This document shows, piece by piece, positions 35,254 through 61,787 of a stretch of DNA of 64,000 nucleotides (positions are counted from its first letter, which is position 1; each line of letters opens with the position of its first letter). The DNA is from Caldifarciminota bacterium. GTDB taxonomy: Bacteria > Hydrothermota > UBA3073. A program made the position numbers and the translations under genes. The notes beneath the pieces were generated by a model. That model did no database searches and was not told the DNA's origin. It was given only the letters and a program-made list of their open reading frames with translations. The stretch is from assembly GCA_030606335.1 (NCBI GenBank), contig JAUWGP010000001.1:62001-126000 (forward strand). The letters are read 5' to 3'.

Positions 35254-35463
35254 TATCATATGACTATATAATGCACCTAATTTTAATGTTGCAGGTAGCA
35301 AAGTTGACTGGTTTGACAACTGCACGACGCCTGCCCCGCCTTGGTGGGAATAGGCAAGGTAATCAGGATGTTTTCTTCACCTCTCAATGTAGGGCATGCT
35401 TCTGCAAGGCTGACTTGACTGACATATATTACTACTCTAACTTCAAATCAAAGCTATACCTCA

Positions 35464-37575: not shown

Positions 37576-37611
37576 AATAAAAAGCCCACATATCAACAAA
37601 GGAGGAACTCC

Positions 37612-38064: not shown

Positions 38065-38234
38065 ATCGGTCTCAACTATTTAATATTTTCAATGTCTCAT
38101 CTTTTTCTAATACTGAGCTATACGACTACCTCAAAAAGACAAAACAAAAAAATATACCAACAACTGGTTCAATGAGTGTAAGAAAGTTGCATGAGATAAT
38201 AAAAGAAAAGAAAAAATCATATACTTTTTTGTAA
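38065..38234 (+). pseudogene. Possible gene remnant
   Basis: A frame of about 56 codons without a start ends at TAA 38232. The last 45 residues look protein-like (NTELYDYLKKTKQK, SVRKLHEIIKEKKKSYTFL). It may be the tail of a lost gene between the barrel protein and the lipoprotein. The evidence is only the frame and residue pattern. Confidence 0.25.
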
Positions 38235-38313
38235 ATGAAGCCTTAAAAAGTTGTAACAATTTGGATATAACAATAGATATATATGAATGCCTGTTTGTTA
38301 TAGGAGGGTAAAG

Positions 38314-43524: not shown

Positions 43525-45180
43525 ATGAAGATGCTAACCGCATGTATAATAGTCCTGGTTGTTATGGGAATTTCAAATATTACTCAGGCTAAGACCCTTG
43601 AGGAATATATTACTGAGGCAGAAGATTATCAGAAGTCCGGCAATCTTGAGCAGGCATTAATATTAATGGAGGAAGCAGTAGAAAAATACCCGGATAGTTC
43701 AAATGCTTATGTATATTCAGGACTATATGCAGGTATGCAGGCAGGACAGTCACAGGACTATATGGAGGCAGGTAGATTAATTGAAAAATCTTTTACACTG
43801 TTCGATAGGGCAGTAGCACTCGATTCCCTTAATCCATTTGCACACTTCTATCGAGGTCTTATGGGTGTGAATGTGCCGGAATTTCTCGGTAAATTAGAGG
43901 GTGGAATTTACAACCTTGAATTTTTAATCAGGATAAACGAAGACTCTCCAGAAAAGGTTTCAGATGATATCATCATAAGTGCCTATGACCTGCTGGGTAT
44001 GGGTTATAAGAAAAAGGGTGAAAAAGAAAATGCAAAACTTGCATGGGAGAAGGTGCTCGAGCTTGCCCCGGGAACAGAACTTGCAGAGAGTGCTGAGGAA
44101 AACATCAATAGACTCTTCCCTGAAGCTACAAAGGAGTCTCAATCAACTGAGGAGAAGAAAATCGAAGGACCTACAATCACCATGCTAAAGGAAAAAATTG
44201 AAAAAGAACCAGATAATCCATCCCTGCTTTTAGATTTAGGTAAAGCCTATATAAATGTTGAGAATTATAAAAAGGCTGAAGAAGCACTAAAGAAGTCAAT
44301 AAGTATCGATTCATCAAATGTTGAAACCTATAAGTATCTTGCATTTGCTCTGGGGGGAATAGCAGGGAAAGGATATGATGAGAGAATCTATGATAATACC
44401 AACTTTCTCGCAAACATTGCATTTGGTGTTATGCAAACCTTGGATAGAGCTTTTCTCCTTGCCCCCGATGATATTGAGTTAAGGCTTTTAAGAGGGATAG
44501 TTGGTGTACAAATGCCTTTCTTTGTAGGAAAGCTTGAACAGGGAATTGATGATTTAAATATTGTTATAGAGAGTGATGTTCACGACTCTACTAAGGCTGA
44601 AGCCTTATACTGGCTTGGTGCAGCGTACCAGAAAAAGGCTATGACCTACTGGATCGATGTAGTATCAAGATATTCAGACTCCAGGGCTGCACAGTTAGTA
44701 TTTGATGGGATATGCCCTTCAGTAAAGCATGTAGACTTGTTAAACTATCAAACTCCCTTTTTAGTTATTGACTTTGTATTAGGATTTCGGGATGAACTGG
44801 CACCACAAACTGGGGTATGGATTGAAGACGAGAAAAACAACTTTATTAAGACAATATATGTCTCTGGATTTAGTGGTTTTGCCAAAGAAAAACAGATTAA
44901 TCTTCCCCAGTGGTCAAGCTCCTCTGAATTCGCTGATGTTGATGCAGTTACAGAAGCAAGTATAGATTTAGGACATCATATATATGTCTGGGATTTTAAG
45001 GATAATTCAGGAAAAGAAGTAAAACAAGGCAATTATATAATAAAAGTAGAGGTTTCCTACTGGCCAAGTATGAAATATCAGTCAGTCTCTGCTCCTATAA
45101 AATTAGGAAAGAAAGAAGAACGAACAGTAGTTGAAGAGGGTAATTTAATTCCATATTTAGAGGTTAAATATTTTCCTTAA
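43525..45180 (+). CDS. Secreted TPR protein with C-terminal DUF2271-like domain
   Basis: The 551-residue product has a signal peptide (about 1-22), TPR-like repeats in two blocks (about 28-190 and 215-420; GNLEQALILMEEAVEKYPDS and YKKAEEALKKSISIDSSNVE), and a beta-rich C-terminus (about 425-551; HHIYVWDFKDNSGKEVKQGN then YIIKVEVSYWPSMKY) like DUF2271. The two TPR blocks look like an internal duplication, each followed by a FLGKLEGGIYNLEFLI or FVGKLEQGIDDLNIVI segment. It is periplasmic. The ribosome binding site is AAAGGAG. Confidence 0.82.
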   Translation: MKMLTACIIVLVVMGISNITQAKTLEEYITEAEDYQKSGNLEQALILMEEAVEKYPDSSNAYVYSGLYAGMQAGQSQDYMEAGRLIEKSFTLFDRAVALDSLNPFAHFYRGLMGVNVPEFLGKLEGGIYNLEFLIRINEDSPEKVSDDIIISAYDLLGMGYKKKGEKENAKLAWEKVLELAPGTELAESAEENINRLFPEATKESQSTEEKKIEGPTITMLKEKIEKEPDNPSLLLDLGKAYINVENYKKAEEALKKSISIDSSNVETYKYLAFALGGIAGKGYDERIYDNTNFLANIAFGVMQTLDRAFLLAPDDIELRLLRGIVGVQMPFFVGKLEQGIDDLNIVIESDVHDSTKAEALYWLGAAYQKKAMTYWIDVVSRYSDSRAAQLVFDGICPSVKHVDLLNYQTPFLVIDFVLGFRDELAPQTGVWIEDEKNNFIKTIYVSGFSGFAKEKQINLPQWSSSSEFADVDAVTEASIDLGHHIYVWDFKDNSGKEVKQGNYIIKVEVSYWPSMKYQSVSAPIKLGKKEERTVVEEGNLIPYLEVKYFP

Positions 45181-45188
45181 GGGAAATC

Positions 45189-45220
45189 GGGGTCAGGCTA
45201 AAAGATAAGAGATAGAATAA
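45189..45220. mobile_element. Truncated end of element family B
   Basis: GGGGTCAGGCTAAAAGATAA and the following 12 bp equal the left end of the family B elements at 46175, 49448 and 61379; the rest is missing, and a family C element begins 8 bp later. Confidence 0.75.
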
Positions 45221-45227
45221 CGAAATT

Positions 45228-45488
45228 GGGGTCAGGTCTTTAGTTTTAAGTTTACTTGACTTCTTCTAAAAGATATATTATATTGATACTATAATGAGAG
45301 TGTTAATAAGTAATATACTGGATGGGTATACCACGTTACCTCTCAGACTATAGCGAAATTCTTTAACTCGGGTTAAATCAACGTCCCAATTATTGTTAAA
45401 TATTTTCAAATTCAGATAGTAAAAACCAACGCCTTAAGAAAATAGTTTATAAGGGTACTTGAAAACTTAAAACTAAAGACCTGACCCC
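45228..45488. mobile_element. Family C element, 261 bp with 26-bp terminal inverted repeats
   Basis: The left end GGGGTCAGGTCTTTAGTTTT continues AAGTTT, and the right end is its exact reverse complement over 26 bp. Inside is a promoter-like TTGACT (45256) 17 bp from TATATT (45279-45284). There is no open frame of note. A single copy is in the window. The ends resemble those of families A and B. The remaining sequence to 45599 is empty. Confidence 0.8.
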
Positions 45489-45599
45489 ATGATCCCTTTT
45501 TCAATTCTCAGCATATGGCTCGGGGTTATGAGATAGAGAGATTTTACACCTTGTTATCTTATGTGTTATGTGAATATCTGACTCCGCATGCATACTTTC

Positions 45600-46165: not shown

Positions 46166-46174
46166 GTAGAAATC

Positions 46175-46347
46175 GGGGTCAGGCTAAAAGATAAGAGATA
46201 GAATATAGACTCTCTACTATTACTAAAAAATATCACATGATAAAAAGCTCCTTCATTTTCAATCCACATCTTCCTGGTCATTTCTTCATTTTACCATAAC
46301 TTTCCGTCCATGTCAAGTAATATTTCTTATCTCTTAGCCTGACCTCC
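46175..46347. mobile_element. Family B element (copy 1)
   Basis: A 173-bp element bounded by GGGGTCAGGCTAAAAGATAA and its inverse (TTATCTCTTAGCCTGACC, one base changed at the tip). On the minus strand it carries TTGACA-17-TAAAAT and then an ATG frame beginning like a REP-associated transposase (MTRKMWIENEGAFYHV), cut after about 25 codons. Confidence 0.85.
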
Positions 46348-46354
46348 AATATTT

Positions 46355-46397
46355 AACTTATGTAATTTCAAGGGATTATGGAGAGTTGACACCAATT
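46355..46397. mobile_element. Right-end fragment of a family A element
   Basis: ACTTATGTAATTTCAAGGGA through GTTGACACCAATT equals the right third of the family A elements. It abuts the family B element and ends 25 bp before the stop of the next gene. Confidence 0.75.
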
Positions 46398-46421
46398 TTC
46401 CCCTCTCAACTAAATGTTTTT

Positions 46422-47072: not shown

Positions 47073-47074
47073 GT

Positions 47075-47139
47075 CAATCGGTGTCAGTTTTCTTTAACTC
47101 TTTATATTTTGTAGGGTTACATCACGACTTTGGTTCATG
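47075..47139. mobile_element. Left half of a family A element
   Basis: AATCGGTGTCAGTTTTCTTT through TTACATCACGACTTTGG matches the left half of complete copies; the right half is missing. From here to 47271 nothing else is recognised. Confidence 0.75.
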
Positions 47140-47271: not shown

Positions 47272-48495
47272 TCATTTTACCATCGGTTGGAATTGAGGAC
47301 AATAAACAGTCGGGGGCATTGTAGTATCTGATTCATGGCTAAATCTCTTCAACACGTTCCCGTCCTTATCTATATAACATAACTCACCAGGAAATCTGTG
47401 CACCAGGTTAAAGACAGAGGTATCTCTATGCATCAATTCATCAAGGGAATCTCTGCTTAACTTCAATAAACCGACGAACCTTTCTTCCTCCATCCTCGGG
47501 TCTTTCATACAGAGGTATATATCTGGGTCAGATGTCTCAGATATACCATAAACATTGTCAAAAAGTTTTCGCTCTTTACCAGTTTTGGGGTCTATAGTAT
47601 ATGTATCCCATACCATACCTAACATATATTTCTTATCCTCTGCTATCCATCGTCCTATACTGTAAATAATCCTTCCATCTTTCATCCATATAGGACTACA
47701 TCTGTCTGCCTTTCCTTTAGAAATCTTTCTCTCATTCTTACCATCTGCATTCATTATGTATAGGTCTTGTGTTCTCGAGCGTTCCCATAGGTTTCTCAAA
47801 AATACTATCTTTTTACCATCGAGCGACCAATAAGGATAGTAATCTACCTTATTGTTATGAGTAAGTCTACTTAACTCCTGAGTCTCTATGTCTAATACAT
47901 ATATCTCGGGCAAGACCTGAGTAGTATCTGTAGATGGAAAAATAAGCGTATCGAATGGCATTGCCTCAAATACAAGTCTCTCCCCATCAGGCGACATACG
48001 AGGATAAGAATGATCAAGAGGATATGCTTCAATCACTAAACTAACGCCGGCACTGAAGTATATGTAATATTTTTTTTGACCCTCTACTATACCTGAATCC
48101 GAAGTGATTTCGTTTCGAAATAAAACTTTTGTCTTTTTATCCCTTATGGACAACATTTTTATCTCTTGAACCTCAGGATATGAAAATCTGGAAAGAAGAG
48201 AGATACGAATAAAAACTATATCTTTGCCCGAGGATGCCCAAGTTGGAGATTCGTATATAACAGCTTTAGTCCAAGCTGCAGAAGAGATAGATTCCCTTAT
48301 GAGAGTATCTTCAAGAGCAATTTCCTTATTGCTCCCATTAACGTTCATAAGAAGAATTTTGGGATAGTCATAATCAAATACTCCTGCAAAGAGAATCTTG
48401 CCCTTTGGATATGAGAAAGCGTTTGAATGTCCGGACCACAATGCTATAATGAGCAATGGTGCGACAACGTATTTATTAATAAATGAACCAACCAT
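47272..48495 (-). CDS. Secreted TolB-like beta-propeller protein
   Basis: The 407-residue product has a signal peptide (about 1-26) and repeats of the TolB/WD40-like PD40 type: YPRMSPDGERLVFEA, YPYWSLDGKKIVFLR and SPIWMKDGRIIYSI. It lacks an N-terminal TolB domain, so it is a free propeller of unknown ligand. Another protein with such repeats is encoded at 59381-60388, also next to a family A element. The start is given as the first ATG; a family A element lies 50 bp upstream. Confidence 0.85.
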   Translation of the reverse strand: MVGSFINKYVVAPLLIIALWSGHSNAFSYPKGKILFAGVFDYDYPKILLMNVNGSNKEIALEDTLIRESISSAAWTKAVIYESPTWASSGKDIVFIRISLLSRFSYPEVQEIKMLSIRDKKTKVLFRNEITSDSGIVEGQKKYYIYFSAGVSLVIEAYPLDHSYPRMSPDGERLVFEAMPFDTLIFPSTDTTQVLPEIYVLDIETQELSRLTHNNKVDYYPYWSLDGKKIVFLRNLWERSRTQDLYIMNADGKNERKISKGKADRCSPIWMKDGRIIYSIGRWIAEDKKYMLGMVWDTYTIDPKTGKERKLFDNVYGISETSDPDIYLCMKDPRMEEERFVGLLKLSRDSLDELMHRDTSVFNLVHRFPGELCYIDKDGNVLKRFSHESDTTMPPTVYCPQFQPMVK

Positions 48496-48544: not shown

Positions 48545-48666
48545 AATTGGTGTCGGTTCTCTCTAACTCTTTATATTTTGTAGGGTTACCTCAAGACTTT
48601 GGCTATGATAAAAGTCAATGCATACCTTACGTAATTTCAAAGGATTACGCAGAACTGACACCAATT
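48545..48666. mobile_element. Family A element (complete, 122 bp)
   Basis: AATTGGTGTCGGTTCT and AGAACTGACACCAATT are terminal inverted repeats (one mismatch). Internal sequence includes TTTGTAGGGTTAC and AAAGTCAATGCATA, shared with the copies at 59134 and 60476. Confidence 0.85.
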
Positions 48667-48707
48667 TTCCTAATACTATGAAGTTCTAAAAAGATAATCT
48701 GAGATGG

Positions 48708-49346
48708 TTAATCTTCTTTCGAATTATGGTAAAAACTTTCAAGTAATCCAATACACTCATCACGAACTTCTACAAGCTTTGGTTCCGTTACTTGTTTTAG
48801 AGCTTTTATACGCAAACTTGTTTCTAAACGTTCAGCCTTATCACTACCATAATACTCATAACCAAAGTTTCCAACAAGTGCATCTAACAGTAAGATAAGA
48901 TTATAATGATTATAAAGCTCCTCAAGGAATAACTTAGGATTAATCCTAATCAATGCTCCAAGTATGCTTGATAATTCCTCAGCGCATGCCCCATCAGCCC
49001 AAGTTGTAAGTAAGCGAAACGCAAGACGAACAGCTTCCCGACCACTGGAGTAAACCTGACGTTCAAGCATTCCTAAAGATTCAAAAACATCCCAGAGAGT
49101 ATCCTCTAATTCTTCATCAATGTCAATATAGTTAAAGACATGTCCCGTGTCAGGTAATAGAGTATACACTTGTATAGCATTCTCACTTGAAGGATAGGAG
49201 ATATATTCCTTCCAAGCTTCATAGAACTTGGCTAGATCAAATCCTTCATGTAACTCAGGTTTGCAACTTGCAGGCAGTGCTATTAACGCTAGGAATATTA
49301 AAAGAGAAGAAAAGTAATGAAAATATCTTGTCCATAGATTAAACAT
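48708..49346 (-). CDS. Secreted helical protein, paralogue 1 of a duplicated block
   Basis: The 212-residue product has a signal-peptide-like hydrophobic start (about 8-24, FSSLLIFLALIALPASC) whose ALPASC may be a weak lipobox, then a helical body (YEAWKEYISYPSSENAIQVY, KLFLEELYNHYNLILLLDAL). No family is recognised. It is about three-quarters identical by eye to the protein at 60639-61277, and the whole flanking block is duplicated. ATG 49346 is chosen over the GTG one codon earlier because the paralogue starts at the same ATG, with an AAGGAGG site. Transcription may come from the promoter inside the family B element upstream. Confidence 0.8.
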   Translation of the reverse strand: MFNLWTRYFHYFSSLLIFLALIALPASCKPELHEGFDLAKFYEAWKEYISYPSSENAIQVYTLLPDTGHVFNYIDIDEELEDTLWDVFESLGMLERQVYSSGREAVRLAFRLLTTWADGACAEELSSILGALIRINPKLFLEELYNHYNLILLLDALVGNFGYEYYGSDKAERLETSLRIKALKQVTEPKLVEVRDECIGLLESFYHNSKED

Positions 49347-49363
49347 CACAACACCTCCTTTAT

Positions 49364-49435
49364 CTATTCATCTTCCCTATCTTGCTTGTCTTGTTCTTCT
49401 TGAGCAGGTTGAAGACCATAAACAGAGGGAAATCG
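49364..49435 (-). pseudogene. 3' remnant of a gene (paralogue of 61295-61372)
   Basis: About 23 codons (FPSVYGLQPAQEEQDKQ...REDE) end at TAG 49364. The paralogous remnant ends VYGPQPAQEG...EREDE. Both are cut at their 5' side by a family B element, so only the acidic tail of the first gene of the pair survives. Confidence 0.6.
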
Positions 49436-49447
49436 GTCAGGGAAATC

Positions 49448-49619
49448 GGGGTCAGGCTAAAAGATAAGAGATAGAATATAGATTCTCTACTATTACTAAA
49501 AAATATCACATGATAAAAAGCTCCTTCATTTTCAATCCACATCTTCCTGGTCATTTCTTCATTTTACCATAATTTTCCATCCATGTCAAGTAATATTTCT
49601 TATCTCTGAGTCTGACCCC
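49448..49619. mobile_element. Family B element (copy 2) with minus-strand promoter
   Basis: A 172-bp element with the GGGGTCAGG... inverted ends. On the minus strand, TTGACA (49584-49589), 17 bp and TAAAAT (49561-49566) precede an ATG frame that begins MTRKMWIENEGAFYHV, the start of a Y1 REP-associated transposase, and then runs out of the element. It points at the gene at 48708-49346. Confidence 0.85.
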
Positions 49620-49714
49620 AATATCTTGCACGAATTGAATTCGTGCCTACAAGTCTGCTGGTAAGTAGGGCAAGCAGGTGAAGCAATCTCATTTTTAAAA
49701 GAAACATTTTTTCC

Positions 49715-49743
49715 TTGACTTTTCTCCATTTTTTCATTATAAT
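49715..49743 (+). promoter_or_regulatory. Consensus promoter of the giant-protein operon
   Basis: TTGACT (49715-49720), spacer TTTCTCCATTTTTTCAT of 17 bp, TATAAT (49738-49743). It is preceded by a GAAGCAATCTCAT repeat end. The leader to the first gene (50170) is about 420 nt and non-coding. Confidence 0.8.
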
Positions 49744-49772
49744 ATACTATAAGGGTTTCCAATAAGAAACTT

Positions 49773-49918
49773 TTTTAGACGGGATATACAGGATGAACTG
49801 GATTTTAATTTATTTATTTTGTTTTTTATAATTATTTCTTTTATTCTTTTATATATCATGTAAATCGGGTTAATCCTGTCAAAAGAAGAGAATTTTAGAC
49901 GGGATATACAGGATGAAC
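49773..49918. repeat. Duplicated GACGGGATATACAGGATGAA unit in the leader
   Basis: TTTTAGACGGGATATACAGG plus ATGAAC occurs at 49773 and again at 49893, with TTAATCCTGTC between them as an inverted partner. A related element lies at 61637-61707. The remainder of the gap to 50169 holds nothing recognised. Confidence 0.65.
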
Positions 49919-50169
49919 ATGATTACGATAACCCCAGAAGTAGTGGGCCTTATTTTTAAAAGGTCTTGAAAAGTATGTAATAACACCGAGGTTTGAATTG
50001 AATACTTAAACATGGCATTTTCTCCTTTGTAAGTTTTTATTGTTAAACGAGTTAAATTATATCACACATTGGAGGAAATGCAAAGAAAATAATACTTTAT
50101 ATTTGCTTTCGTAGTAAGGGTTTGTGTTATTTTGCAGAAGTCATCTATAACATAAACAGGGAGGTCACA

Positions 50170-50808
50170 ATGAAGGCGTTGTATTTTGTATTCGGGATAA
50201 TTTCCCTCGTTATTATAAGCCCGCTTGGTGCAGAGGAAAAAAGCGATATACCAATAGAACCTGTAAGCGAATCTGATATAAATCTTGAAACGAATCCAAC
50301 AATACCAGAAATGGGCTCAAAAACTTATCTCATTGATACCGCAGATCCAGTCGTTAGATTAAGAATAGATGCGAGCGAGAAGATTGCGGTATTGGAACAG
50401 ATGGATGAATTCGATTATGATAATAAAGAAACCCAGCTGCAGAAAGAGATCGAGACCATAAAGATCAACACTGAGATTAAAATACTCAATATACATCTTG
50501 AAAAGGCAAGAGAGGCAAAAGATGAGGACTTAATAGAAGAAATAACAACAGCTATAGATAATCTCATGGGTGTTTATACACTCCCTTTAGCGGGCAACAC
50601 AGAAGAGAGAAAAGTGGATATTGGGACGAGAGAAAAGAAAGTGGAAGATGGTGGATTACCCCCTCCTCCTCCAGACTACATTGAGAAAGAGAAGAAATCC
50701 TCTCCAGCCAAAATAATCCCTGTGCCCGAAGAACAAATGGAAATGTTAGAAGAGAAAATAGAAGAGGAAGATAACTCTGGGTCTAATGACAAGGGAGGTG
50801 CAAGATGA
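50170..50808 (+). CDS. Acidic secreted protein, partner gene of the giant protein
   Basis: From ATG 50170 (GGGAGGT ribosome binding site) the product has 212 residues: a signal peptide (about 1-21), an acidic Pro/Ser/Glu segment, a predicted coiled coil (about 68-130, LQKEIETIKINTEIKILNIH) and a Pro-rich plus Glu-rich tail. No domain is recognised. Its TGA overlaps the ATG of the 2705-residue protein (ATGA, 50805-50808), so the two are translationally coupled, and it may act as its inhibitor, chaperone or surface partner (inference). Confidence 0.82.
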   Translation: MKALYFVFGIISLVIISPLGAEEKSDIPIEPVSESDINLETNPTIPEMGSKTYLIDTADPVVRLRIDASEKIAVLEQMDEFDYDNKETQLQKEIETIKINTEIKILNIHLEKAREAKDEDLIEEITTAIDNLMGVYTLPLAGNTEERKVDIGTREKKVEDGGLPPPPPDYIEKEKKSSPAKIIPVPEEQMEMLEEKIEEEDNSGSNDKGGAR

Positions 50809-53800
50809 AATCGGTATTAATCTATCTTATATTATTGGCTATTGCATCTTCCTCTGTTCAGCTTTTAGCAGAAGAGGTTCTGGTACCCTTTGAAACGATT
50901 GAAAAGATTGCCAAGACCAATGCCACGTCTCTATGGGGAGATGTAAACCAGACAGAAGCCATCCCCTATTATGGACGAGATGAGGAAATTGTCGCTTATG
51001 TATTCAACTTTGCTGTTGGGCATCCATTTCCTCCAAAAGAGGAAGTCCTCCAATCCTCGGAAAGGGCTCATAAAGACAATGATAAGAAAAAGAGGTGGGG
51101 AGTGGATGAGTACGCACATATGGTTGTCGGAGCGAGATATACTGTTCCTCCAATTATTGAATATAGCAAATCCCTTTCTGGTGAGTTTGCTTATGGAGTG
51201 GAATTAGAAGAGCGTGCCAGGGAGGCGCTTGGAGTATCTTTACCAGAATTGGTAAAAATCTACTACCTTGCACCTGAGGCTGGGTGGTATGTATACACAA
51301 ACAGCCGTGACACGGTCTGCATAAGGCTCTTTCCTCCACCCAAGACATTGTCTCTGAGACAGTTTAATGGAGAGATAAGAAACCTTGAAGAATGGAACCC
51401 TCTTTTGGGTCCATCTCCTCGGGATTTCAGGCAGCTTTGGAGCGAATATGAGAAGGGGAATGAGGTCCTATCACTACGCGCCAATCATTTTATACCCATG
51501 CATGGACAGATGCCCTACAACGACTGGAGTTACGGATGTACACCCACAACCTATGCCATGCTTGCTGGATATTGGGATAACTATGGTTTCTATACGGCAA
51601 GTAATTACTCAAAACTGGTAGATTATCATGTTGAACGCTGGGATATGGTCCAGGCAGAGACAGACTATAATGTCTCGAACATCCAGAGAGAATTTGCCAT
51701 TGCAATGAATACGGATACCACGACCGGCGGCACTGGTGAAACGGGATGGACCAATGGTTGTACCTATGTAACCAATACACTCAACGGATATAATTTCTCG
51801 TACCACAATTATTATGGGACAGCAAGCCAGTACTGGGATACATTAACCTCGTGCATTGATAACGGTATACCAGTACATCTGGGTACCCCTGGACACTCCA
51901 ATGCCGGTATGGGGTATACCGATAATCATTATGCTATCCGACATAGCACCGAAGGGGCAACTTGGAATACTGTATATTATACATCTATAGATTTAGTTGG
52001 ACCATTCATTCCGGGTGGAGCTTCCGGCTGGACGATTAAACTTGCATCACCCAATGGAGACCCAGGTTATAATCACGACGGCAATGGTGAGATATTAAGA
52101 GCGGGTGAGTCTTATACCATTACATGGGCCTATGATGGCGGCGCTGGTGGATCTGTCAGGATTGAGTACTCCACGGATGGCGGATCTACCTGGTCTACAA
52201 TCACGACAGGTACATCAAATGACGGTTCATATCTATGGAATGTTCCACAGACCCTATCTACAAACGAAGGGCGCATACGATTAAAGCTTAATTCCAGCAA
52301 AGACAGAGTTCTCTGGGGTGGAGACGGAAGCTGGGGGAATTTCATCATACAGGCTACACCGGACCTCGTTCACTATAAGCCTGCAGGATGGACCTACCCT
52401 GTAGTTCCCCGTAGTTCTACTGGGGCGACCTCAAGCACCTGCGTTCTCCCGAGCACCTTACCTGGAAACTCCTCTTCAACCTATCTCAACATGCAGGGCA
52501 AAAACCAGGGTAATGCAAGTGCTGGTGGATTTTCTCATCATTTCTATATAGATGGTGTTTATGCCGGCGGTGCTTCCTGGGGAGGTGTCTCTGCCGGACA
52601 GCGCTTCTGGCATGGAAATTATGGTGCATTTAATGTGAGAGGTGGTCGACATACAATATCTGACTCGGTGGATGTTGGGAACTCTATCAACGAATCCAAC
52701 GAGAATAACAATTTCTATGCTCGCCAATTTGTATGGAGCCCCCTATTTCTTGCCCAGGACACAAGCATATACCGCAGTTCTCCCCCACCAGAGAGATACA
52801 CAGGGATAACGGCATATCCCAACTGCGATGGTTTCTCCTTTAACAGCTCATCGGGAAGCTGGTGGACTGCTGTGGGTATATTACCATCTTCAAGTGGGAA
52901 TGACTATGATTTGAGACTACACAATGACTATGTGGGTAGCGAAGTCGGGTTCGGAACCTATCTTGAGTCATCAACTTACGGAACAGACAGATCTGATTTT
53001 CTACTGGTAAACTATAATGTCACCTCTGGTACATATTACACAGGAGTGAACCGTTATTCCGGTGGCACAAGCGGATTCCGTATCAATAGAAGTGATGCAC
53101 CCTATCATGGAAGCGGTTCCTGTACTACAAGTGTAGATACCTTGGACTTGGGTCACATCGTAAATATACATGAATTTCGGCTTTATGGAGGAAATTTTTA
53201 CAGAATTGCACTTGATCACCTGACTGGTGCCGCTGATTTGGGAATAAGCATCTACAATGGAAAAGATACTGTATTTGCAAAAGTTGATTATATGTCTGGG
53301 GGAGGTGCAAATGCTGATCCCGATTCCGGGGATGAGGTCTTCTCAATTACGATTTCTGATACAGGTTACTATTGTGTAGCAGTATGGAAAGACGACCAGG
53401 CTGGGCTCTATACTTCGAATACGTACAGGTTGATGATTCAGGAGGGTGGGGCAGGTGACTGGATTGGCGTCACAAGTTCTGATTGGCATACCTGGAGTAA
53501 TTGGTTTGGGAGTAGTGTCCCGAGCTCGGGCTTGGATGTAACCATTCCTGCTGGTACCCCATATTCTCCTATTATCTATTCTTCTCATACCTATTGCAAT
53601 AAACTAACCATAGATTCAGGAGCCCGATTGGTGGTAGCCAATGCAATTGATCTAACAGTTAACAGCCACCTCATATTCAATGGTACTCTGAAAGACAGTT
53701 CAGGTGGAACTATTTATGTCAAGGGAAACTGGCAAGACTATGGAATTTTTGAATGGGAAGCACCTTCTTACTCCTACGTACGGCTCAATGGCTCTGGACT

Positions 53801-56800
53801 CCAGTACATCGTTGGTGGTGATTTCTATGACCTATCTATATATGGTACAGGTAATACCGTCCGAATAATATGGACGGATCTGGATGTTGAAGATAATCTC
53901 TATGTTCACAATACCCTTGATACCTACGATAATGGATACGCCATAAATGCCAGAAATATTTATATCTATGACACAGCCATACTCGATGCACAGACGTATT
54001 CACTTGGAGTAAACACTGTCAGTAATATCTGGATACAGAGCGGAGGATATCTTAATACGGCAAATGATAACTCCTCAATCGTATGCGGGGAAGACATGCT
54101 CATTTATGGCACACTGTATTGTGGAACAAGGTATCCCGATATCTTCTGCGGTAGAAACTGGGTCGACACGACTGGTACCTTCAATGAAGGATACTCTACA
54201 GTATACTTCAATGGAACAGGTACCCAGGATATTATGGGAGGAGAAACCTTCTGGGATGTGGTTGTAGATAAAACAGCTGGAAAACTACGTCCTTATGATG
54301 CAGGTATAACAATCCATTCCCTCTATATTGAGAATGGCACATTCGACCTCAACAGTTATGATGCCGACATAACATCTGATGCAACTATACGAGGACATCT
54401 CGAAATGGTCCACAGTCTCGATGATTTCAATGTCGATGATGATATAATATGGGATTCTACTGCCACAGCTACAATTACAGACGGCGAGATAAGGTGTGGA
54501 GACGATTTTGACGTCTATTATGGCGCAGGTATTCAAATGTCAGGTGGTACAGTCTATTTTGTAGGTGCACTAAACAGCTACATCCATATGTATGACCCCG
54601 ATTTCTCATTCCATAATTTCAGGGTAATCAAAGACTCTGGCTATTGGCTGAAGATATCCACCTTATCTACACATCCTGTAGATGTGAATGGATATTTCTA
54701 TAATGATAATCTTTCTACATTTGATACCCAGATAGAGACCATCGAAGTAGCAGGCAACTGGACAAACAACGGAACATTTTCACCCACAAGTGGTCTGGTT
54801 TGCTTTGATGGAATATCCCAGTTTATAGACAATGGCTCGGGAAATTTCTGGGACCTTGAAATAGATGTCTCCTCTACACTGACGACCAATGATAATCTTG
54901 ATGTCGATGATGATTTTACTATCCTGAGCGGGACCTTTAATCCGGGATCATATGATACATATGTAGGGGGTGATTGGAACGATACACTTGGGACATTTCA
55001 ACCTGCTTCAGCCTCTAATTGGGTTATATTCGATGGAAATGGTCAGCAGCTGATATATCAGAAGGATTCAAATCACTTCCAAGGGGTCGAGATATGGAAT
55101 ACGGGCACTTCTCCATCACAGGTTAGGGCTGAAACAGACCTCGACATACTCTGGTACTTTAACATAACCTCAGGATATTTCAATGTCAACGGGCAGGACT
55201 TATATATTACAAATGCTCTTCAACTTGGTTATATGCCATCACACGATGGTAATCTTACACAGTACGACGGCGCAATCCACTGCAATGGTGTGAGGTGGTA
55301 TGCAGGAACGGTGGATTTGCAGGGCGGGACCATCTGCTCCAGTTTCGATAACGCTTCTTATCCTGATTGGAACGATACCCTTATCACCTTTCAGGCGTCG
55401 GGCAATCATGCGGTAGAGATGATAGGCTCCACTGACATCACGATTATACAGAAATCCGGCAATTACTTTAATAATTTAGCTATAAACAAACATGCAAAGC
55501 AGGACTCACCCGATAGAAAACAGGATTTAGATATACCAATTACCTGTACAGGACTTCTTCCCCCACTCATACCAAGGGAAAGCAAAACCAATACCGTGTT
55601 GGCAAACACAGATTTCGATATTAACGGCAACCTGTTGATATCAAATGGCGTTCTGGATCCAAGTGGTCACACATTGAGGATCGCCGGCAACTGGACAAAC
55701 GATGTGGGTGACGTGGGTTTTGTCGAGGGCATGGATGCTGTTATATTTGATGGAACAACGAGTTCGGATATACTTACTGATGAGACCTTCTATGTCCTGA
55801 CTCTTGATAAAACTTATCCAAATTATGATGGATTAGAGACAGGAACTGATGGTAATGGGAAGAACATAAATGTCCTTGATAATTTGAATATAGTAGATGG
55901 AACCATGGAGTTAAACGTTCCATGTACTCTTGACGTTGAAGGAGACGTACAGATCGCTCTTAACGCTGGTATAAACGGAAACGATGGATATAATATCTGC
56001 ATATACATAGGTGGTAACTGGGTTGACGACAATCCAGTTCACTCAAGTACCTATGGATTCGACTATGGAATTTCGGATGTCATATTCGATGGTAACGGAT
56101 TACAGGACATCTCTGGTGATTCGGTCAATTTCTACAACCTCGAGCTTTCCACTGTTAATCCTACCCCTCACTATGAGGACCTTGAACTCACTGGGGCAAA
56201 TAAACTCTTGAGGATACATAATGACCTGCGTCTTGTGAGAGGGGGTATGGAGATAAACGGTAACAGCATTCTGGATATAGATGGCAGTGTCTTGATTGAT
56301 TCTACTGCTGGTCTCGACGCGGATGACGGTGGTATAAAAATACACGTGGCTAGTAACTGGACAAACACGGGAAATTATGCTATAGAAGGCGGAGGACCAA
56401 TGGATGGCTTTGATCAATACACCTCCTCGGTCATATTTGATGGAACGAGCGAATCTCACATAGGAGAAGATACATTTGATACCCTGAGGATAGATAAGGA
56501 GAGTGCCAAAGAAAATGCGCCCTTAAAATACTGGGGTGAACTCTATGAGCAAGCAGAAGAGTCGGAGGAGGAAATTAAACCATACTATGGAAAGGAATCT
56601 TTAGGAAAGGCAGACAGCACGGCATATGCCGATTCTACAATAATCGCATCAAATATCTGGGTGGACACGGGAAATCTTGAGACATCCGGTCACATTATCA
56701 GAGCCTATGATGACGTTAATATAAGCGGTGCCTTAAGACTGGATGCAGGAGCCGTTCTCGAGGTTGGTGATACGCTAAACGTCAATAATGGAGGTAGGCT

Positions 56801-58922
56801 GGAATGCACAGGCACAGACACATCACAGACGGCAAGGGTAACGAGGACAGGAAGTGGATACTATGCCTTCAATGTAAATGCAGGTGGTACCGTAAGCCCT
56901 ATCTATTCTATCTTTGAATACATGGGCTCAAATGGCATACATATAACGGGCTGCGGCGCAGTAGATACCTCCACGAGTTTTGACTACTGCAGATTCCGAA
57001 ACGGTAAATCAGGTGGAACTCTTATGCAAATCGATAATTCACAGGATATACAGATAGTGGATGCAATCTTTCCTGAAAATACCTGGGGAGGTTCCCATAA
57101 CGTCTCCAAGTTAGAAAACCAGGGAACCGTTACATTTATATATCCCTATGGTGACTTTGCCGGAGAAGACTTTGAAGATGACCTTTACAACAGGATATTC
57201 TGGACTGTCGATACTGCAGGACCCGTTGTCTCTTACGTATACCCTCCGCAGGATACACTCATGAGGGACAATCTCCCAACCATCGAAGCCCGTTACTATG
57301 ACTCAGAAACCGGAATAAAGACCTCTACTGTGTTTCTACAACTCGATGGCAGTTCGGTTAGTGCCACTGTAACAGATTCCTCAGTGGAGTATACCCCTAC
57401 TGTGGCTCTTTCAGATACTGTTCACGAAGTGGAGCTCAGTGTATCCGATAACAGAGACAACCAGACCATCTTCTCGTGGGAGTTTGAAGTTGATGCCAGT
57501 GCACCCCTGCCCCCCCCTCTCTCCTATCCCCCTGACAGCTCCTGGGTAGGAGACACAACAGTATGTTTCCAGTGGGGAGAGGTCGTGAAATCTATCTCCA
57601 ATGACAACAAATGGCAAATTGTTAGCCGTCCATCAGCCTATAATGATCTCAACCTGTCCGATATCCATACTGATGAATTAAAGGTAAGGCCCACCAGTTA
57701 CATTGATGAACAAGTTAATACTGGTAATAGAAAAGTTAGTACAGTAGAAAAAGCCGACCAAAGTCTGAGCGATGCAAATATTATAGGCGAAGGTCGATAC
57801 ATGGGTGCGCCCAAGGCTTCTGAGGTAAGTTATATAATTCAAGTGGATACCTCTGAGAGTTTCATTGACCCAATCATTATCGATACTACTAACCAGCCTC
57901 TCGATACATTGAATCTTGACCAAGATCATTATTACTGGAGGGTTAAAGCATATGACCTCGCAGGAAACATAGGTGACTTCTCCTCGTCATGGGAGTTCGG
58001 CATTGATATCACTCCCCCGGATTCCTTTGAACTGATATCACCCTTGGACTCCACTTGCCAGGGCACTAACAGGCCCACGTTTTTATGGCATTCAACAACA
58101 GATACTGCTTGCGGATTCTGGGGGTACCATGCATATGTCGATGGCGACCTCAAAAACACAGGGCTCGATACCTCCTGGACAGCCGACTATGACCTGAGTG
58201 AAGGATATCATAACTGGTACATAGTTGCTGTAGACAGCGTTGGTAATGCAAAACAATCAAATCAAGTATGGGCATTACTGATAGATACACAACCACCCGA
58301 GATAGAATCAACAACAGTCTGGCGTGATACAACCTTTACAGGACCGTTTCCTATCAATACCAATGTAAGCGATACAAATGGTGTCAGCAAGGTAGAACTC
58401 TGGTACAGGACGAGTGTGGATACAAATTGGGTAAATATTGCAATGGACACTGCAAAAGCCGTGGTGGAATTTACAGGAGTGATACCCACACAGCCCTGTA
58501 ATACCACTGTTGACTATTACATATACGTAGAGGATAATGCACAGCCACCTAATGAGGCAAGAGACCCCGTGAACGCTCCCGATAGTACCTATTCATTCAC
58601 TGTGGTAAGTGGAACTAGCGTCATGGAAGAAAATCCGGTCCCTGACGTCTTCTTCCTCTCGCAGAATCATCCCAATCCGTTCTGTCAATCCACCTGTATC
58701 GAATTTGGTCTTCCTATCAAGTCTTATGTTGGTATATCTATATATAATATCTCAGGATTCAGGGTAGCCAAACTCATAGACCAGGAGATGAAGGCTGGTT
58801 ACTATGAGACAAGATGGGACGGGAGAAATGACAAGGGGGACAATGCTCCTCAGGGAATATATTTCTGTCAGTTCACTACAGAGAGCTTCTGTAAGGTAAG
58901 AAAGATAGTACTGCTGCGATAG
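50805..58922 (+). CDS. Giant secreted protein with C39-like peptidase domain, beta-repeat region and sorting domain
   Basis: 2705 residues. Signal peptide about 1-22; a propeptide-like region to 225; a C39-like papain-fold domain (about 226-400) with Cys245 in SYGCTPTTYAMLAGYW and His375 in TDNHYAIRHS; a KNH-like beta-sandwich (about 405-512); a CARDB-like domain (519-645); a pre-peptidase-type region (650-885); about 1240 residues of beta-helix-like repeats with recurring NWTNxG, VIFDG and DLDVEDN-like words (885-2128); Ig/FN3-like domains (2134-2600); and a C-terminal sorting domain from 2611 (NHPNPF, SIYNISGFRVAKL, APQGIYFCQF). Lys/Asp/Ser-rich loops (about 2260-2340, and near 1570 and 1910) interrupt otherwise regular domains. 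It is probably a surface adhesin with protease-like head; activity is inferred. Confidence 0.88.
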   Translation: MKSVLIYLILLAIASSSVQLLAEEVLVPFETIEKIAKTNATSLWGDVNQTEAIPYYGRDEEIVAYVFNFAVGHPFPPKEEVLQSSERAHKDNDKKKRWGVDEYAHMVVGARYTVPPIIEYSKSLSGEFAYGVELEERAREALGVSLPELVKIYYLAPEAGWYVYTNSRDTVCIRLFPPPKTLSLRQFNGEIRNLEEWNPLLGPSPRDFRQLWSEYEKGNEVLSLRANHFIPMHGQMPYNDWSYGCTPTTYAMLAGYWDNYGFYTASNYSKLVDYHVERWDMVQAETDYNVSNIQREFAIAMNTDTTTGGTGETGWTNGCTYVTNTLNGYNFSYHNYYGTASQYWDTLTSCIDNGIPVHLGTPGHSNAGMGYTDNHYAIRHSTEGATWNTVYYTSIDLVGPFIPGGASGWTIKLASPNGDPGYNHDGNGEILRAGESYTITWAYDGGAGGSVRIEYSTDGGSTWSTITTGTSNDGSYLWNVPQTLSTNEGRIRLKLNSSKDRVLWGGDGSWGNFIIQATPDLVHYKPAGWTYPVVPRSSTGATSSTCVLPSTLPGNSSSTYLNMQGKNQGNASAGGFSHHFYIDGVYAGGASWGGVSAGQRFWHGNYGAFNVRGGRHTISDSVDVGNSINESNENNNFYARQFVWSPLFLAQDTSIYRSSPPPERYTGITAYPNCDGFSFNSSSGSWWTAVGILPSSSGNDYDLRLHNDYVGSEVGFGTYLESSTYGTDRSDFLLVNYNVTSGTYYTGVNRYSGGTSGFRINRSDAPYHGSGSCTTSVDTLDLGHIVNIHEFRLYGGNFYRIALDHLTGAADLGISIYNGKDTVFAKVDYMSGGGANADPDSGDEVFSITISDTGYYCVAVWKDDQAGLYTSNTYRLMIQEGGAGDWIGVTSSDWHTWSNWFGSSVPSSGLDVTIPAGTPYSPIIYSSHTYCNKLTIDSGARLVVANAIDLTVNSHLIFNGTLKDSSGGTIYVKGNWQDYGIFEWEAPSYSYVRLNGSGLQYIVGGDFYDLSIYGTGNTVRIIWTDLDVEDNLYVHNTLDTYDNGYAINARNIYIYDTAILDAQTYSLGVNTVSNIWIQSGGYLNTANDNSSIVCGEDMLIYGTLYCGTRYPDIFCGRNWVDTTGTFNEGYSTVYFNGTGTQDIMGGETFWDVVVDKTAGKLRPYDAGITIHSLYIENGTFDLNSYDADITSDATIRGHLEMVHSLDDFNVDDDIIWDSTATATITDGEIRCGDDFDVYYGAGIQMSGGTVYFVGALNSYIHMYDPDFSFHNFRVIKDSGYWLKISTLSTHPVDVNGYFYNDNLSTFDTQIETIEVAGNWTNNGTFSPTSGLVCFDGISQFIDNGSGNFWDLEIDVSSTLTTNDNLDVDDDFTILSGTFNPGSYDTYVGGDWNDTLGTFQPASASNWVIFDGNGQQLIYQKDSNHFQGVEIWNTGTSPSQVRAETDLDILWYFNITSGYFNVNGQDLYITNALQLGYMPSHDGNLTQYDGAIHCNGVRWYAGTVDLQGGTICSSFDNASYPDWNDTLITFQASGNHAVEMIGSTDITIIQKSGNYFNNLAINKHAKQDSPDRKQDLDIPITCTGLLPPLIPRESKTNTVLANTDFDINGNLLISNGVLDPSGHTLRIAGNWTNDVGDVGFVEGMDAVIFDGTTSSDILTDETFYVLTLDKTYPNYDGLETGTDGNGKNINVLDNLNIVDGTMELNVPCTLDVEGDVQIALNAGINGNDGYNICIYIGGNWVDDNPVHSSTYGFDYGISDVIFDGNGLQDISGDSVNFYNLELSTVNPTPHYEDLELTGANKLLRIHNDLRLVRGGMEINGNSILDIDGSVLIDSTAGLDADDGGIKIHVASNWTNTGNYAIEGGGPMDGFDQYTSSVIFDGTSESHIGEDTFDTLRIDKESAKENAPLKYWGELYEQAEESEEEIKPYYGKESLGKADSTAYADSTIIASNIWVDTGNLETSGHIIRAYDDVNISGALRLDAGAVLEVGDTLNVNNGGRLECTGTDTSQTARVTRTGSGYYAFNVNAGGTVSPIYSIFEYMGSNGIHITGCGAVDTSTSFDYCRFRNGKSGGTLMQIDNSQDIQIVDAIFPENTWGGSHNVSKLENQGTVTFIYPYGDFAGEDFEDDLYNRIFWTVDTAGPVVSYVYPPQDTLMRDNLPTIEARYYDSETGIKTSTVFLQLDGSSVSATVTDSSVEYTPTVALSDTVHEVELSVSDNRDNQTIFSWEFEVDASAPLPPPLSYPPDSSWVGDTTVCFQWGEVVKSISNDNKWQIVSRPSAYNDLNLSDIHTDELKVRPTSYIDEQVNTGNRKVSTVEKADQSLSDANIIGEGRYMGAPKASEVSYIIQVDTSESFIDPIIIDTTNQPLDTLNLDQDHYYWRVKAYDLAGNIGDFSSSWEFGIDITPPDSFELISPLDSTCQGTNRPTFLWHSTTDTACGFWGYHAYVDGDLKNTGLDTSWTADYDLSEGYHNWYIVAVDSVGNAKQSNQVWALLIDTQPPEIESTTVWRDTTFTGPFPINTNVSDTNGVSKVELWYRTSVDTNWVNIAMDTAKAVVEFTGVIPTQPCNTTVDYYIYVEDNAQPPNEARDPVNAPDSTYSFTVVSGTSVMEENPVPDVFFLSQNHPNPFCQSTCIEFGLPIKSYVGISIYNISGFRVAKLIDQEMKAGYYETRWDGRNDKGDNAPQGIYFCQFTTESFCKVRKIVLLR

Positions 58923-59133
58923 TATCGTATAATGAGAATATAGGGTAAACCCTACCTGATGCCTGCTTGACGGCAGTCAGGTCGCCAGATAGATAGGCTT
59001 TTGGATTGCTCCGCAAGGCTAAAGCCCTGCCCTACAATTTACCAAAATATCTCTCTGGATGCAGGGCAAACCCTAAAAAACTGATTCATGGAGGAATCCA
59101 GCAACTACATCTGGTGGTCAATTGGTGTCGGTC
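58923..59133. repeat. Repeat-filled gap after the giant gene
   Basis: Contains GCCTGCTTGACGGCAGTCAGG-like and GGGTAAACCCTACC palindromic words, CAGGGCAAACCC, and a 14-bp family A tip (59119-59132) directly before a complete family A element. No gene. Confidence 0.5.
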
Positions 59134-59254
59134 AATTGGTGTCAGTTCTCTTTAACTCTCTATATTTTGTAGGGTTACATCAAGACTTGGTTATCATAAA
59201 ATTCAATGCATGACTTATGTAATCTCAAGGGATTATGCAGAGCTGACACCAATT
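59134..59254. mobile_element. Family A element (complete, 121 bp)
   Basis: AATTGGTGTCAGTTCT at the left and AGCTGACACCAATT at the right, with the shared internal TTTGTAGGGTTAC. A partial extra tip in the same orientation sits just to its left. From 59255 to 59380 nothing is recognised. Confidence 0.85.
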
Positions 59255-59380
59255 TTTCCGCTCACACCGCACCACATCAAACCAGACTTTTCCAGAACCC
59301 TCGAGCCTTTGTAAAGTTACTTTTATTGCCTTTATGTTTTGAGAATTTCTATTTGATAGATATTTAACTGACTGAACTTG

Positions 59381-60388
59381 CTAATAACTAATATCCACTA
59401 TAAATACTCCTTCTTCAGGTATAGTTGTAGAAATAGCCAGCTTCCTACTATCTGGTGACCATAAAGAACCTGGTATAACAAAGGGTGCTATTGGTGTTCT
59501 AAACTTGCCTACTTCAACCATTTTCCTTGTAGATACTTCTATAATAAACAATCTGAAGTCGTATGTGCCTACAGGAGATGCTAAAGTGAGAAATCTACTA
59601 TTGGGTGACCACTTATCAACATATAAACCACATTCAGGAGGAAGTACTTCGGTAGCTTTAGTTAAACGCTTCGGGGACCGAACAGCGGGCTTCACTTCAA
59701 CGATATATACATCCTCTTCCTGTATATATGCAATATATTTTCCGTTAGGTGACCATGAGAATGGAGAGACGAGCCAACCCTCTGCTATGAATTTCTTTGT
59801 TAGCAGAGAATCCTTTTTTTTACATATAAATATACTGTCCCTCTGGTAAAATGCAAATGCTTCACCATCTGGCGACCATGAAATTTCAGCACTCTTATCT
59901 GAAACCTTTCTGACATTTCGTTCTTTAAGATTTATAAGAAACACACCCAATTCTACATCAGAAATATCACCAGTAGAACATAAGATAGAAATAGAGTCAG
60001 GTGAAATATACGCCATAGTAGCGTCTATTCGTAATAAACACAATATAGTATCTGTTTTCGCCAGCCATATTCCTTGTAGGTCGTTCCTTGCATCACGATT
60101 CCACAATACTCTTCCATACAGGGTATTACCTAATATTTCAAATTTGACACTGGGTATAAAGGATGGCCATGAACCAGAAGCTCTAATTTTCCTATCAGAT
60201 ATGCTTATTCCCCAGAGACTTCCACCACGTTTTTTTATTACTAAAGTGTCTCCTTCAGGAGTCCATCTATAGACTTGTGCTGTATCGGCGATTCGAAGTA
60301 ATGGGCTTACCGAAAATTCAGCATATGCCAGATGACAACTCGCAATAACAATGAGAAGAGTTAGTATTTGTGTCTTTAATAAACGCAT
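59381..60388 (-). CDS. Secreted TolB-like beta-propeller protein
   Basis: The 335-residue product has a signal peptide (about 1-23) and four or more PD40 repeats: ISWSPDGEAFAFYQ, FSWSPNGKYIAYIQ, DKWSPNSRFLTLAS and SLWSPDSRKLAIST. It is only distantly like the propeller at 47272-48495, but occupies the equivalent place next to a family A element and the duplicated block. The AAGGAGG ribosome binding site is good. Ligand unknown; periplasmic or surface location expected. Confidence 0.85.
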   Translation of the reverse strand: MRLLKTQILTLLIVIASCHLAYAEFSVSPLLRIADTAQVYRWTPEGDTLVIKKRGGSLWGISISDRKIRASGSWPSFIPSVKFEILGNTLYGRVLWNRDARNDLQGIWLAKTDTILCLLRIDATMAYISPDSISILCSTGDISDVELGVFLINLKERNVRKVSDKSAEISWSPDGEAFAFYQRDSIFICKKKDSLLTKKFIAEGWLVSPFSWSPNGKYIAYIQEEDVYIVEVKPAVRSPKRLTKATEVLPPECGLYVDKWSPNSRFLTLASPVGTYDFRLFIIEVSTRKMVEVGKFRTPIAPFVIPGSLWSPDSRKLAISTTIPEEGVFIVDISY

Positions 60389-60398
60389 TTTTACCTCC

Positions 60399-60473
60399 TT
60401 ATTCTCTTATAGATTCCACAGAATGTTCTTCCAATCTTCTCCTTTCCTCCTCAAGATATTCATTGAAGTTCAG
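60399..60473 (-). pseudogene. 3' remnant of a gene truncated by a family A element
   Basis: 24 codons (LNFNEYLEEERRRLEEHSVE...) end at TAA 60399-60401, 10 bp before the propeller gene. The frame begins exactly at the boundary of the family A element (60476). It matches the pattern of tail-only remnants at 46055, 46948, 49364 and 61295. Confidence 0.55.
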
Positions 60474-60475
60474 TC

Positions 60476-60597
60476 AATTGGTGTCAGTTCTCTCTAACTC
60501 TCTATATTTCGTAGGGTTACATCACGACTTTTACTATGATAAAAGTCAATGCATAACTTATGTAATTTCAAGGGATTACGCAGAACTGACACCAATT
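60476..60597. mobile_element. Family A element (complete, 122 bp)
   Basis: AATTGGTGTCAGTTCT and AGAACTGACACCAATT are perfect 16-bp terminal inverted repeats. It is the best-preserved copy, at the left edge of duplicated block 2, equivalent to 48545-48666. Confidence 0.88.
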
Positions 60598-60638
60598 TTC
60601 CTAATACTATGAAGTTCTAAAAAGATAATCTAAGATGG

Positions 60639-61277
60639 TTAATCTTCTTTCGAATTGTGGTGGAAACTTTCAAGTAATACAATACACTCGTCACGAACTT
60701 CTACAAGCTTTGGGTCCGTTACTTGTTTTAGAGCTTTTATACGCAAACTTGCTTCTAGACGTTCAGCCTTATCACGACCACAATATTCGGGACCAAAGTT
60801 TCCAACAAGTGCATCTAACCGGGAGACAAGATTACGATGAGTATATAGCTCCTCAAGGAATAACTTTGGATTAATCCGGATCAACGTACCCAATATGATA
60901 TCCAACTCTTCAGAGAACGCCGCATCTCCAAACGTCGTAAGTAAGCGGAATGCCAGTTGCACTGCCTTTCGATCACTCGTGTAGACTTGACGTTCAAGCA
61001 TGTCTAAAGATTCATAAACCTCCCAGGTAATATCTTCATATTCTTTAGTAAAATCAATATACTGAGTAACATGACCTGTGTCAGGTAGCAGCTCATACAC
61101 TCGTATAGCATTCTCACTTGAAGGATATGAGATATATTCCTTCCAAGCTTCATAGAACTTAGCTAAATCAAATCCTTCTTGTAACTCAGGTTTGCAACTT
61201 GCAGGCAGTGCTATTAACGCTAGGAATATTAAAAGAGAAGAAAAGTAATGAAGATATCTTGTCCATAGATTAAACAT
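60639..61277 (-). CDS. Secreted helical protein, paralogue 2 of the duplicated block
   Basis: The 212-residue product has the same signal region (FSSLLIFLALIALPASC) and layout as the protein at 48708-49346, with strongest conservation in the first 60 residues and in RIKALKQVTDPKLVEVRDEC near the end; differences cluster between 70 and 170. No domain is recognised. The start ATG 61277 follows AAGGAGG. The flanking elements and promoter are the same as for paralogue 1. Confidence 0.8.
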   Translation of the reverse strand: MFNLWTRYLHYFSSLLIFLALIALPASCKPELQEGFDLAKFYEAWKEYISYPSSENAIRVYELLPDTGHVTQYIDFTKEYEDITWEVYESLDMLERQVYTSDRKAVQLAFRLLTTFGDAAFSEELDIILGTLIRINPKLFLEELYTHRNLVSRLDALVGNFGPEYCGRDKAERLEASLRIKALKQVTDPKLVEVRDECIVLLESFHHNSKED

Positions 61278-61294
61278 CGCGGCACCTCCTTTAT

Positions 61295-61372
61295 CTATTC
61301 ATCTTCCCTCTCCTGCTCCTGCTGATATTGTCCTTCTTGAGCAGGTTGAGGACCATAAACAGGATCATCAAG
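61295..61372 (-). pseudogene. 3' remnant of a gene (paralogue of 49364-49435)
   Basis: 25 codons (DDPVYGPQPAQEGQYQQ...EREDE) end at TAG 61295, followed by the paralogue 2 ribosome binding site. Upstream lies the family B element at 61379. Gln/Glu-rich acidic tail. Confidence 0.6.
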
Positions 61373-61378
61373 GAAATC

Positions 61379-61550
61379 GGGGTCAGGCTAAGAGATAAGA
61401 GATAGAATATAAGCTCTCTACTATTACTAAAAAATATCACATAATAAAAAGCTCCTTCATTTTCAATCCACATCTTCCTGAACATTTCTTCATTTTACCA
61501 TAACTTTCCGTCCATGTCAAGTTATATTTCTTATCTCTTAGCCTGACCCC
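61379..61550. mobile_element. Family B element (copy 3)
   Basis: A 172-bp element whose ends GGGGTCAGGCTAAGAGATAA and TTATCTCTTAGCCTGACCCC are perfect inverse copies (22 bp in total). It has the same minus-strand TTGACA-17-TAAAAT promoter and transposase-start frame as copies 1 and 2, with MFRKMWIENEGAFYYV here. Confidence 0.88.
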
Positions 61551-61577
61551 CAATATCAAATCTTCACAACTTTTTCC

Positions 61578-61609
61578 TTGACTTTTCCCCTTTTTTATTA
61601 TATTATACT
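61578..61609 (+). promoter_or_regulatory. Promoter of the molybdenum hydroxylase operon
   Basis: TTGACT at 61578-61583 with TATTAT at 61601 (17-bp spacer) or TATACT at 61604. Flanks CTTTTTCC before and ACTATAAGGG after are almost those of the promoter at 49715. Confidence 0.65.
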
Positions 61610-61636
61610 ATAAGGGCTTCCGAAAGGAAACTTTTT

Positions 61637-61707
61637 AGACAGGATGAACAAGATAGACAGGATTTTTTTAATTCTTTTATTTATCTTGTAAATCCGGTTA
61701 ATCCTGT
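61637..61707. repeat. GACAGGAT-bounded inverted repeat
   Basis: GACAGGATGAACAAGATAGA at the left and ATCTTGTAAATCCGGTTAAT followed by CCTGTC at the right form an imperfect stem. It is the same type as at 49773-49918, lying between promoter and first gene in both duplicated blocks. Confidence 0.6.
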
Positions 61708-61787
61708 CAAAAAAATAGTGTCGTATCTTTTATAATTACCTTAAATCATATCTTAAAAAGAGCCTACTTACACTTCATTTAAAGAAT

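Follow-up and report, generated by a model that had tools for sequence, protein, structure and literature searches.

The 64,000-nucleotide stretch of a Caldifarciminota bacterium genome analysed here (the window) holds an operon for a giant secreted protein bracketed by two direct copies of the same block. How did this bracket arise, and does it enclose a segment that can move? Working from left to right, the parts of the two blocks and of the cargo between them are as follows, where ‘sister’ denotes the one same-genus genome compared (G001, candidate division WOR-3):

48545..48668, plus strand: family A miniature element (MITE), block 1; terminal hairpin fold, z -3.9
48708..49349, minus strand: hel1, orphan helical gene, 213 aa; no Pfam match; protein 82% identical to that of hel2
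49367..49441, minus strand: tail-only remnant, block 1; in-frame tail VYGLQPAQEEQDKQDREDE up to its stop, cut at B
49442..49625, minus strand: family B element, block 1; 93% identical to B of block 2; keeps the ends and first codons of its parent
49716..49775, plus strand: promoter TTGACT..TATAAT, block 1; 89% to the sister's Mo-operon promoter, 85% to block 2
49776..49924, plus strand: GACAGGAT-type array, end of block 1; 57/58 identical to C144:20566-20623 of the sister
50122..50808, plus strand: 228-aa frame, cargo; probable start ATG near 50171
50805..58922, plus strand: 2705-aa secreted multidomain protein, cargo; CARDB, FlgD_ig and Por_Secre_tail-like matches (Pfam)
59134..59256, plus strand: third full A element, right of the cargo; 88% to the block 1 copy
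59381..60388, minus strand: TolB-like beta-propeller gene (TolB2); PD40, TIGR02800 weak
60476..60599, plus strand: A element, block 2; 92% to the block 1 copy
60639..61277, minus strand: hel2, 212 aa
61298..61372, minus strand: tail-only remnant, block 2; in-frame tail DDPVYGPQPAQEGQYQQEQEREDE up to its stop
61373..61557, minus strand: B element, block 2; 94.6% to C144:20213-20397 of the sister, right flank shared
61574..61633, plus strand: Mo-hydroxylase operon promoter, block 2; 93% to the sister, same place
61634..61718, plus strand: GACAGGAT array, truncated, end of block 2

Pairwise local alignment matches 48545-49890 with 60476-61718 in the same order and orientation: A, helical gene (minus), tail-only frame (minus), B, plus-strand promoter and GACAGGAT array. 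The A-hel-B part (48545-49625 vs 60476-61557) is 87% identical over 1088 columns (BLAST, E=0) and the promoter part (49708-49824 vs 61571-61682) 81% identical (BLAST), with B and promoter some 80 bp further apart in block 1. The left block edge falls exactly at the outer end of the family A element, with no similarity further left, and the outer flanks of the two blocks have nothing in common on pairwise alignment. The order and strands of the parts on either side of the giant-protein operon are thus those described in a previous sequence-only reading of the window, as is the tail-only frame, both copies of which keep the C-terminal tail ..QPAQE..REDE and stop, and which is what remains of a gene upstream that was cut at B. 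Of the block limits given there the left edges stand; the right edge of block 1 lies at 49924 rather than 49798, as judged by comparison with the sister genome, and the alignment of block 2 runs to 61718. The pair is a genuine segmental duplication, located at a variable-gene hotspot beside the Mo-hydroxylase operon.

An error of assembly at repeats has to be considered for any draft genome, and ours is a metagenome-assembled draft of 59 contigs (as all the genomes compared are drafts of this kind) with repeats of 1.2 kb; the two copies, however, differ at 13% of sites, their longest exact match of 73 bp is short for a misjoin, and their outer flanks are confirmed by an independent genome, so that an artefact is scarcely credible. 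That common repeats inserted independently beside unrelated genes is excluded, since both blocks share hel, of which no copy is found beyond these two in its own genome and 99 related ones. Nor were relatives of hel found in a scan of ~85,000 genomes and a viral contig collection. Its product, probably membrane-anchored, is predicted to be all-helical, in a low-confidence model (pLDDT 58) too poor for a fold search.

Turning to the cargo, the 228-aa frame is 38% identical to a gene of the sister that holds the same position before a giant gene there, and the nearest relative of the giant protein in that genome (58% identical) is encoded on another contig, without blocks. None of the cargo genes annotated through Pfam codes for an integrase or for a replication or transfer function. 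Just after the giant gene, positions 59012-59074 are 84% like C58:15036-15097, which follows the next giant gene in the sister, a likeness that may reflect the fusion of two adjacent giant genes, or the loss of one of them. TolB-like genes precede both blocks (TolB1, 47272-48495; TolB2, 59381-60388); we dropped the idea that they form a duplicated pair, no homology between them being detectable by BLAST. Further to the left, two orphan membrane-protein genes (45600-46058 and 46422-46937, minus strand) lie among pieces of MITEs, and neither has a significant Pfam, NCBIfam or PADLOC match.

What, then, are the elements at the borders? Besides those within the blocks and cargo, the window holds the following:

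45180..45219, plus strand: B left-end fragment, directly after a TPR gene
45227..45489, no strand assigned: third MITE type (C); inverted repeat I1, 44-nt arms; ends like the L033 RAYT element (TGGGGTCAGGTCTT..)
46169..46352, minus strand (RAYT sense): B, full length; 94-98% to other copies and to the sister's single B
46354..46401, plus strand: A right-end piece; 85-92% to full A copies
47073..47133, plus strand: A left-end piece; 90-92% to full A copies

A profile search returns five Y1_Tnp (PF01797) matches in this genome. One of them (63.5 bits), on contig C53, belongs to a 307-aa REP-associated tyrosine transposase (RAYT) with an HUH motif (HIH at 60) and YIHLNP at 119; against NF047646 this protein scores 60.6 bits, below the cut-off of 80, with two sibling RAYTs at 87.3 and 81.5. 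The gene sits within a 1031-bp element (L032) that has GGGGTCAGGCTAAGAGATAAGA at 1399 and the complement of this sequence ending at 2429, i.e. inverted ends, a design also seen in L031, L033 and elements of relatives. Family B retains positions 1-118 and 997-1031 of this parent (the first ~118 and last ~35 bp, including the gene start) at 84-97%, and folds as a terminal hairpin (z -6.2). By this comparison, B is a miniature, non-autonomous, internally deleted copy of a RAYT element. Some 15 more or less complete copies occur in the genome, most of them 74-82% like those of the window, and the fragment at 45180-45219 shows 100% identity, along 40-41 bp, with other B copies as well as with C144:20209-20249 of the sister. 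Clustering of B was discarded as proof of local duplication: 3/16 copies within 16 kb has a chance of ~6%, which is not significant. Across the WOR-3 RAYT elements L031, L032, L033, L075, L077, L085 and L090 the outer end GGGGTCAGGCT is common, with one variant, GGGTCAGGTCTT, and just inside it lie ~10 bases that vary from one element to the next, while the two ends of any given element agree. The C-terminal part of three of the RAYT proteins (L033:907-1878, L031:1462-2415, L032:1465-2388) matches the DNA-binding end of DnaA (TIGR00362, best E 2.4e-11), which suggests a fused helix-turn-helix.

These features recall the RAYT elements and their REP/REPIN derivatives (PMC2817692, PMC3116915), where likewise a Y1 transposase with HUH and Tyr motifs lies between inverted ends, and where short copies without the gene keep both ends and fold as palindromes. 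A classical REP/REPIN has by definition a GT(A/G)G head and, after it, a short palindrome (PMC2817692), whereas the ends here (GGGGTCAGGC) have no such head and consist of GGGGTCAGGCT plus an element-specific inner repeat; and because B still carries the first RAYT codons, we regard it as an internally deleted MITE and not a minimal REPIN. Family A is a hairpin MITE similar to B, its three full and two partial copies all falling within one 14-kb stretch in a single orientation; full copies also occur in two related genomes (G002 and G004). No RAYT with A-type ends is present among the RAYT loci examined in this genome and five relatives. Read by eye, the ends of A contain no attC core (GTTRRRY), the site that, along with an integron integrase, marks integron gene cassettes.

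With such elements at hand, a RAYT acting in trans might recognise the outer end of A together with the outer end of B and transpose the intervening 1.08 kb, gene included, as a composite unit. The duplicated core does begin at the outer end of A, homology free of large gaps stops at the outer end of B plus 7 bp, full-length RAYTs are present in the genome, and mobilisation of MITE-flanked genes is known in other bacteria (PMC10969869). Yet the ends of A and B differ, A is without a known RAYT, and neither the genome nor its relatives hold a further A-hel-B copy; as the promoter and array outside B were copied too, composite transposition becomes less likely, and we consider it improbable. The MITE-flanked integrons of Acinetobacter, in which MITEs flank gene segments, offer a close comparison in having genes between MITE copies that serve as recombination sites (PMC10969869), but here the flanking MITEs are not identical and no target-site duplication is seen. 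A composite transposon, with transposase-bearing IS copies on its flanks and target-site duplications, also differs from the present case: the window copies have no Y1 gene.

The promoter is where the relationship between the blocks acquires a direction. That the block 2 promoter is that of the Mo-hydroxylase operon, as had been proposed, is borne out by its counterpart in the sister. We had to reject the notion that promoter and array are mere genome-wide modules outside the block: the block 1 promoter is 85-89% identical to the Mo promoters, against 58-69% to other promoters of its type. The promoter is thus part of the block, and is the Mo-hydroxylase operon's own, shared with the sister genome. 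Furthermore, the block 1 array continues to match the sister's Mo upstream sequence (57/58 bp) beyond the point where block 2 stops. B, promoter and array are then a resident unit upstream of the Mo operon, and since they are found there in both genomes, block 1 is the derived copy for that part. The right flank of B, shared by the sister and block 2, places the insertion of this B before the split; block 2's B is the positional counterpart of the sister's single copy. In other WOR-3 genomes the Mo FAD subunit is matched at 48-52%, with uninformative gene order around it.

The sister genome also bears on whether the bracketed interval can be lost. Positions 33262-38277 and 61745-66732 are collinear with its contig C144 at 95-96%, with nothing between these flanks there but a single B, the promoter, the GACAGGAT array and a gene of 226 aa. 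The sequence-only reading had envisaged excision via the direct repeats, to be refuted if no relative lacked or rearranged the interval and the blocks fitted independent insertion of common elements. Neither applies: such insertion is excluded by hel, and a relative of this sort does exist, as the sister is without 38278 to ~61370 (23.1 kb) and has one B there instead, but its junction is not the one that block-by-block excision leaves. Excision of that kind should have left one A-hel-B-promoter behind TolB1, and hel, A and TolB1 are all missing from the site; on this comparison, the sister's state did not come about by the two blocks recombining with each other. One of its breakpoints is the left edge of B. 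The other, at 38277, falls outside any B element, so that at least one event there was not a simple B-by-B recombination.

It might instead be that nothing was gained: the present layout goes back to an ancestor, the sister has since lost 23 kb, and the duplication is old and static. In the outgroup (G003), a single contig has, downstream of that same 523-aa gene which stands at the site here, both a DUF885 gene (78%) and a counterpart of the 226-aa gene (77%); the DUF885 gene was therefore probably lost by the sister, making at least that part of the 23 kb ancestral. The blocks, moreover, are further apart (13%) than the two genomes are on average (4-6%). Against this, sister and outgroup are both without the giant, hel and TolB genes at the site, and the excess divergence of the blocks resides mainly in the middle of hel, the remainder matching the age of the genome split. 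Deletion by itself is hence possible, if on balance unlikely. In the outgroup the equivalent position between the same two anchor genes is taken by a ThaI-type restriction-modification pair (L172:6481-8071), indicating that the site varies. With no counterpart of the giant/hel/TolB part there in either genome, we consider it likelier that this lineage gained that part than that it was lost twice. The 226-aa gene which follows the array in the sister is absent here, and was probably lost from this genome.

How might such a gain have occurred? A circle comprising the giant operon, A, TolB2, A, hel, B and promoter could have integrated by a single crossover into a resident A-hel-B-promoter block. 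This is the excision idea of the sequence-only reading in reverse, and a special case of the recombination that we favour below. It would leave exactly such a bracket of direct repeats around a segment that has no counterpart at the site in sister or outgroup, and, albeit as a weak indication, the sequence to the left of B in the sister (AAGGGAAATC) is matched by the B fragment at 45179. On the other side, none of the annotated cargo genes is of the integrase, replication or transfer kind, and the sister's giant operon is on another contig without blocks; in the assembled sequences no sign was found of a circle, of amplification or of current mobility, and we regard a circle as rather unlikely.

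The reading we hold to be fairly probable is that a hotspot of variable gene content was rearranged by homologous recombination, with MITEs and array repeats as its substrates, and that in the course of this the block upstream of the Mo operon was copied to a position before the giant operon. In this genome an A-hel-tail segment lies left of the resident B, and the A-hel-tail-B-promoter-array unit would have been copied in front of the giant operon through RecA-type recombination of dispersed repeats, be it an unequal exchange, an ectopic copying event or the integration, by a single crossover, of a segment bearing such a repeat. A Mo-type promoter would thereby have been placed upstream of the giant operon, which it may now drive from ~420 bp away, with the cargo left between direct repeats. 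The edges of the copy lie at the end of A and inside an array repeat, both of which are repeated near the site, making RecA-type homologous recombination the likeliest route. We infer recombination rather than transposition, and likewise the order of the steps; A and hel are absent from the sister, and no intermediate state is seen among the genomes compared.

In bacterial chromosomes, direct-repeat segmental duplications arise by homologous recombination between dispersed repeats. The present case resembles these in its direct copies, in edges that fall within repeats and in an interval present in one relative and absent from another; it differs in that the copies are diverged and mosaic, pointing to an old arrangement and not a fresh amplification. 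Along hel, dS is 0.09 for the first 55 codons, 1.0 for the next 75 and 0.25 for the rest, as compared with 0.07-0.10 for orthologues of this genome and the sister; on this basis the duplication is about as old as the split. In the middle 75 codons 28% of bases differ (dS ~1), between more similar ends. This part would have recombined or diverged separately, and the mosaic of dS values points to recombination.

The direct-repeat duplication is thus real and repeat-bounded, its parts of known kinds, mechanistically ordinary and new only in the detail of their arrangement. With the sister genome for comparison, it illustrates concretely how miniature elements of RAYT origin shape the gene complement in an uncultured phylum: such elements lie at the limits of a duplication and at the breakpoint of a 23-kb interval present in one genome and absent from the other, and they go with the copy of one operon's promoter upstream of a giant secreted protein.

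Behind each minus-strand gene between 46422 and the end of hel2 at 61277 there is a complete or partial A element. It is conceivable, if very doubtful, that A and B borders are the borders of cassettes, with single genes gained, swapped or copied, either by a RAYT acting on mixed ends or by recombination, in a transposase-poor cassette array. Were A-bordered genes indeed exchangeable cassettes, this would be a new route of gene capture. Elsewhere in the window, an MjaI-type restriction-modification pair (26009-27894) marks a second stretch where the sister carries different genes.
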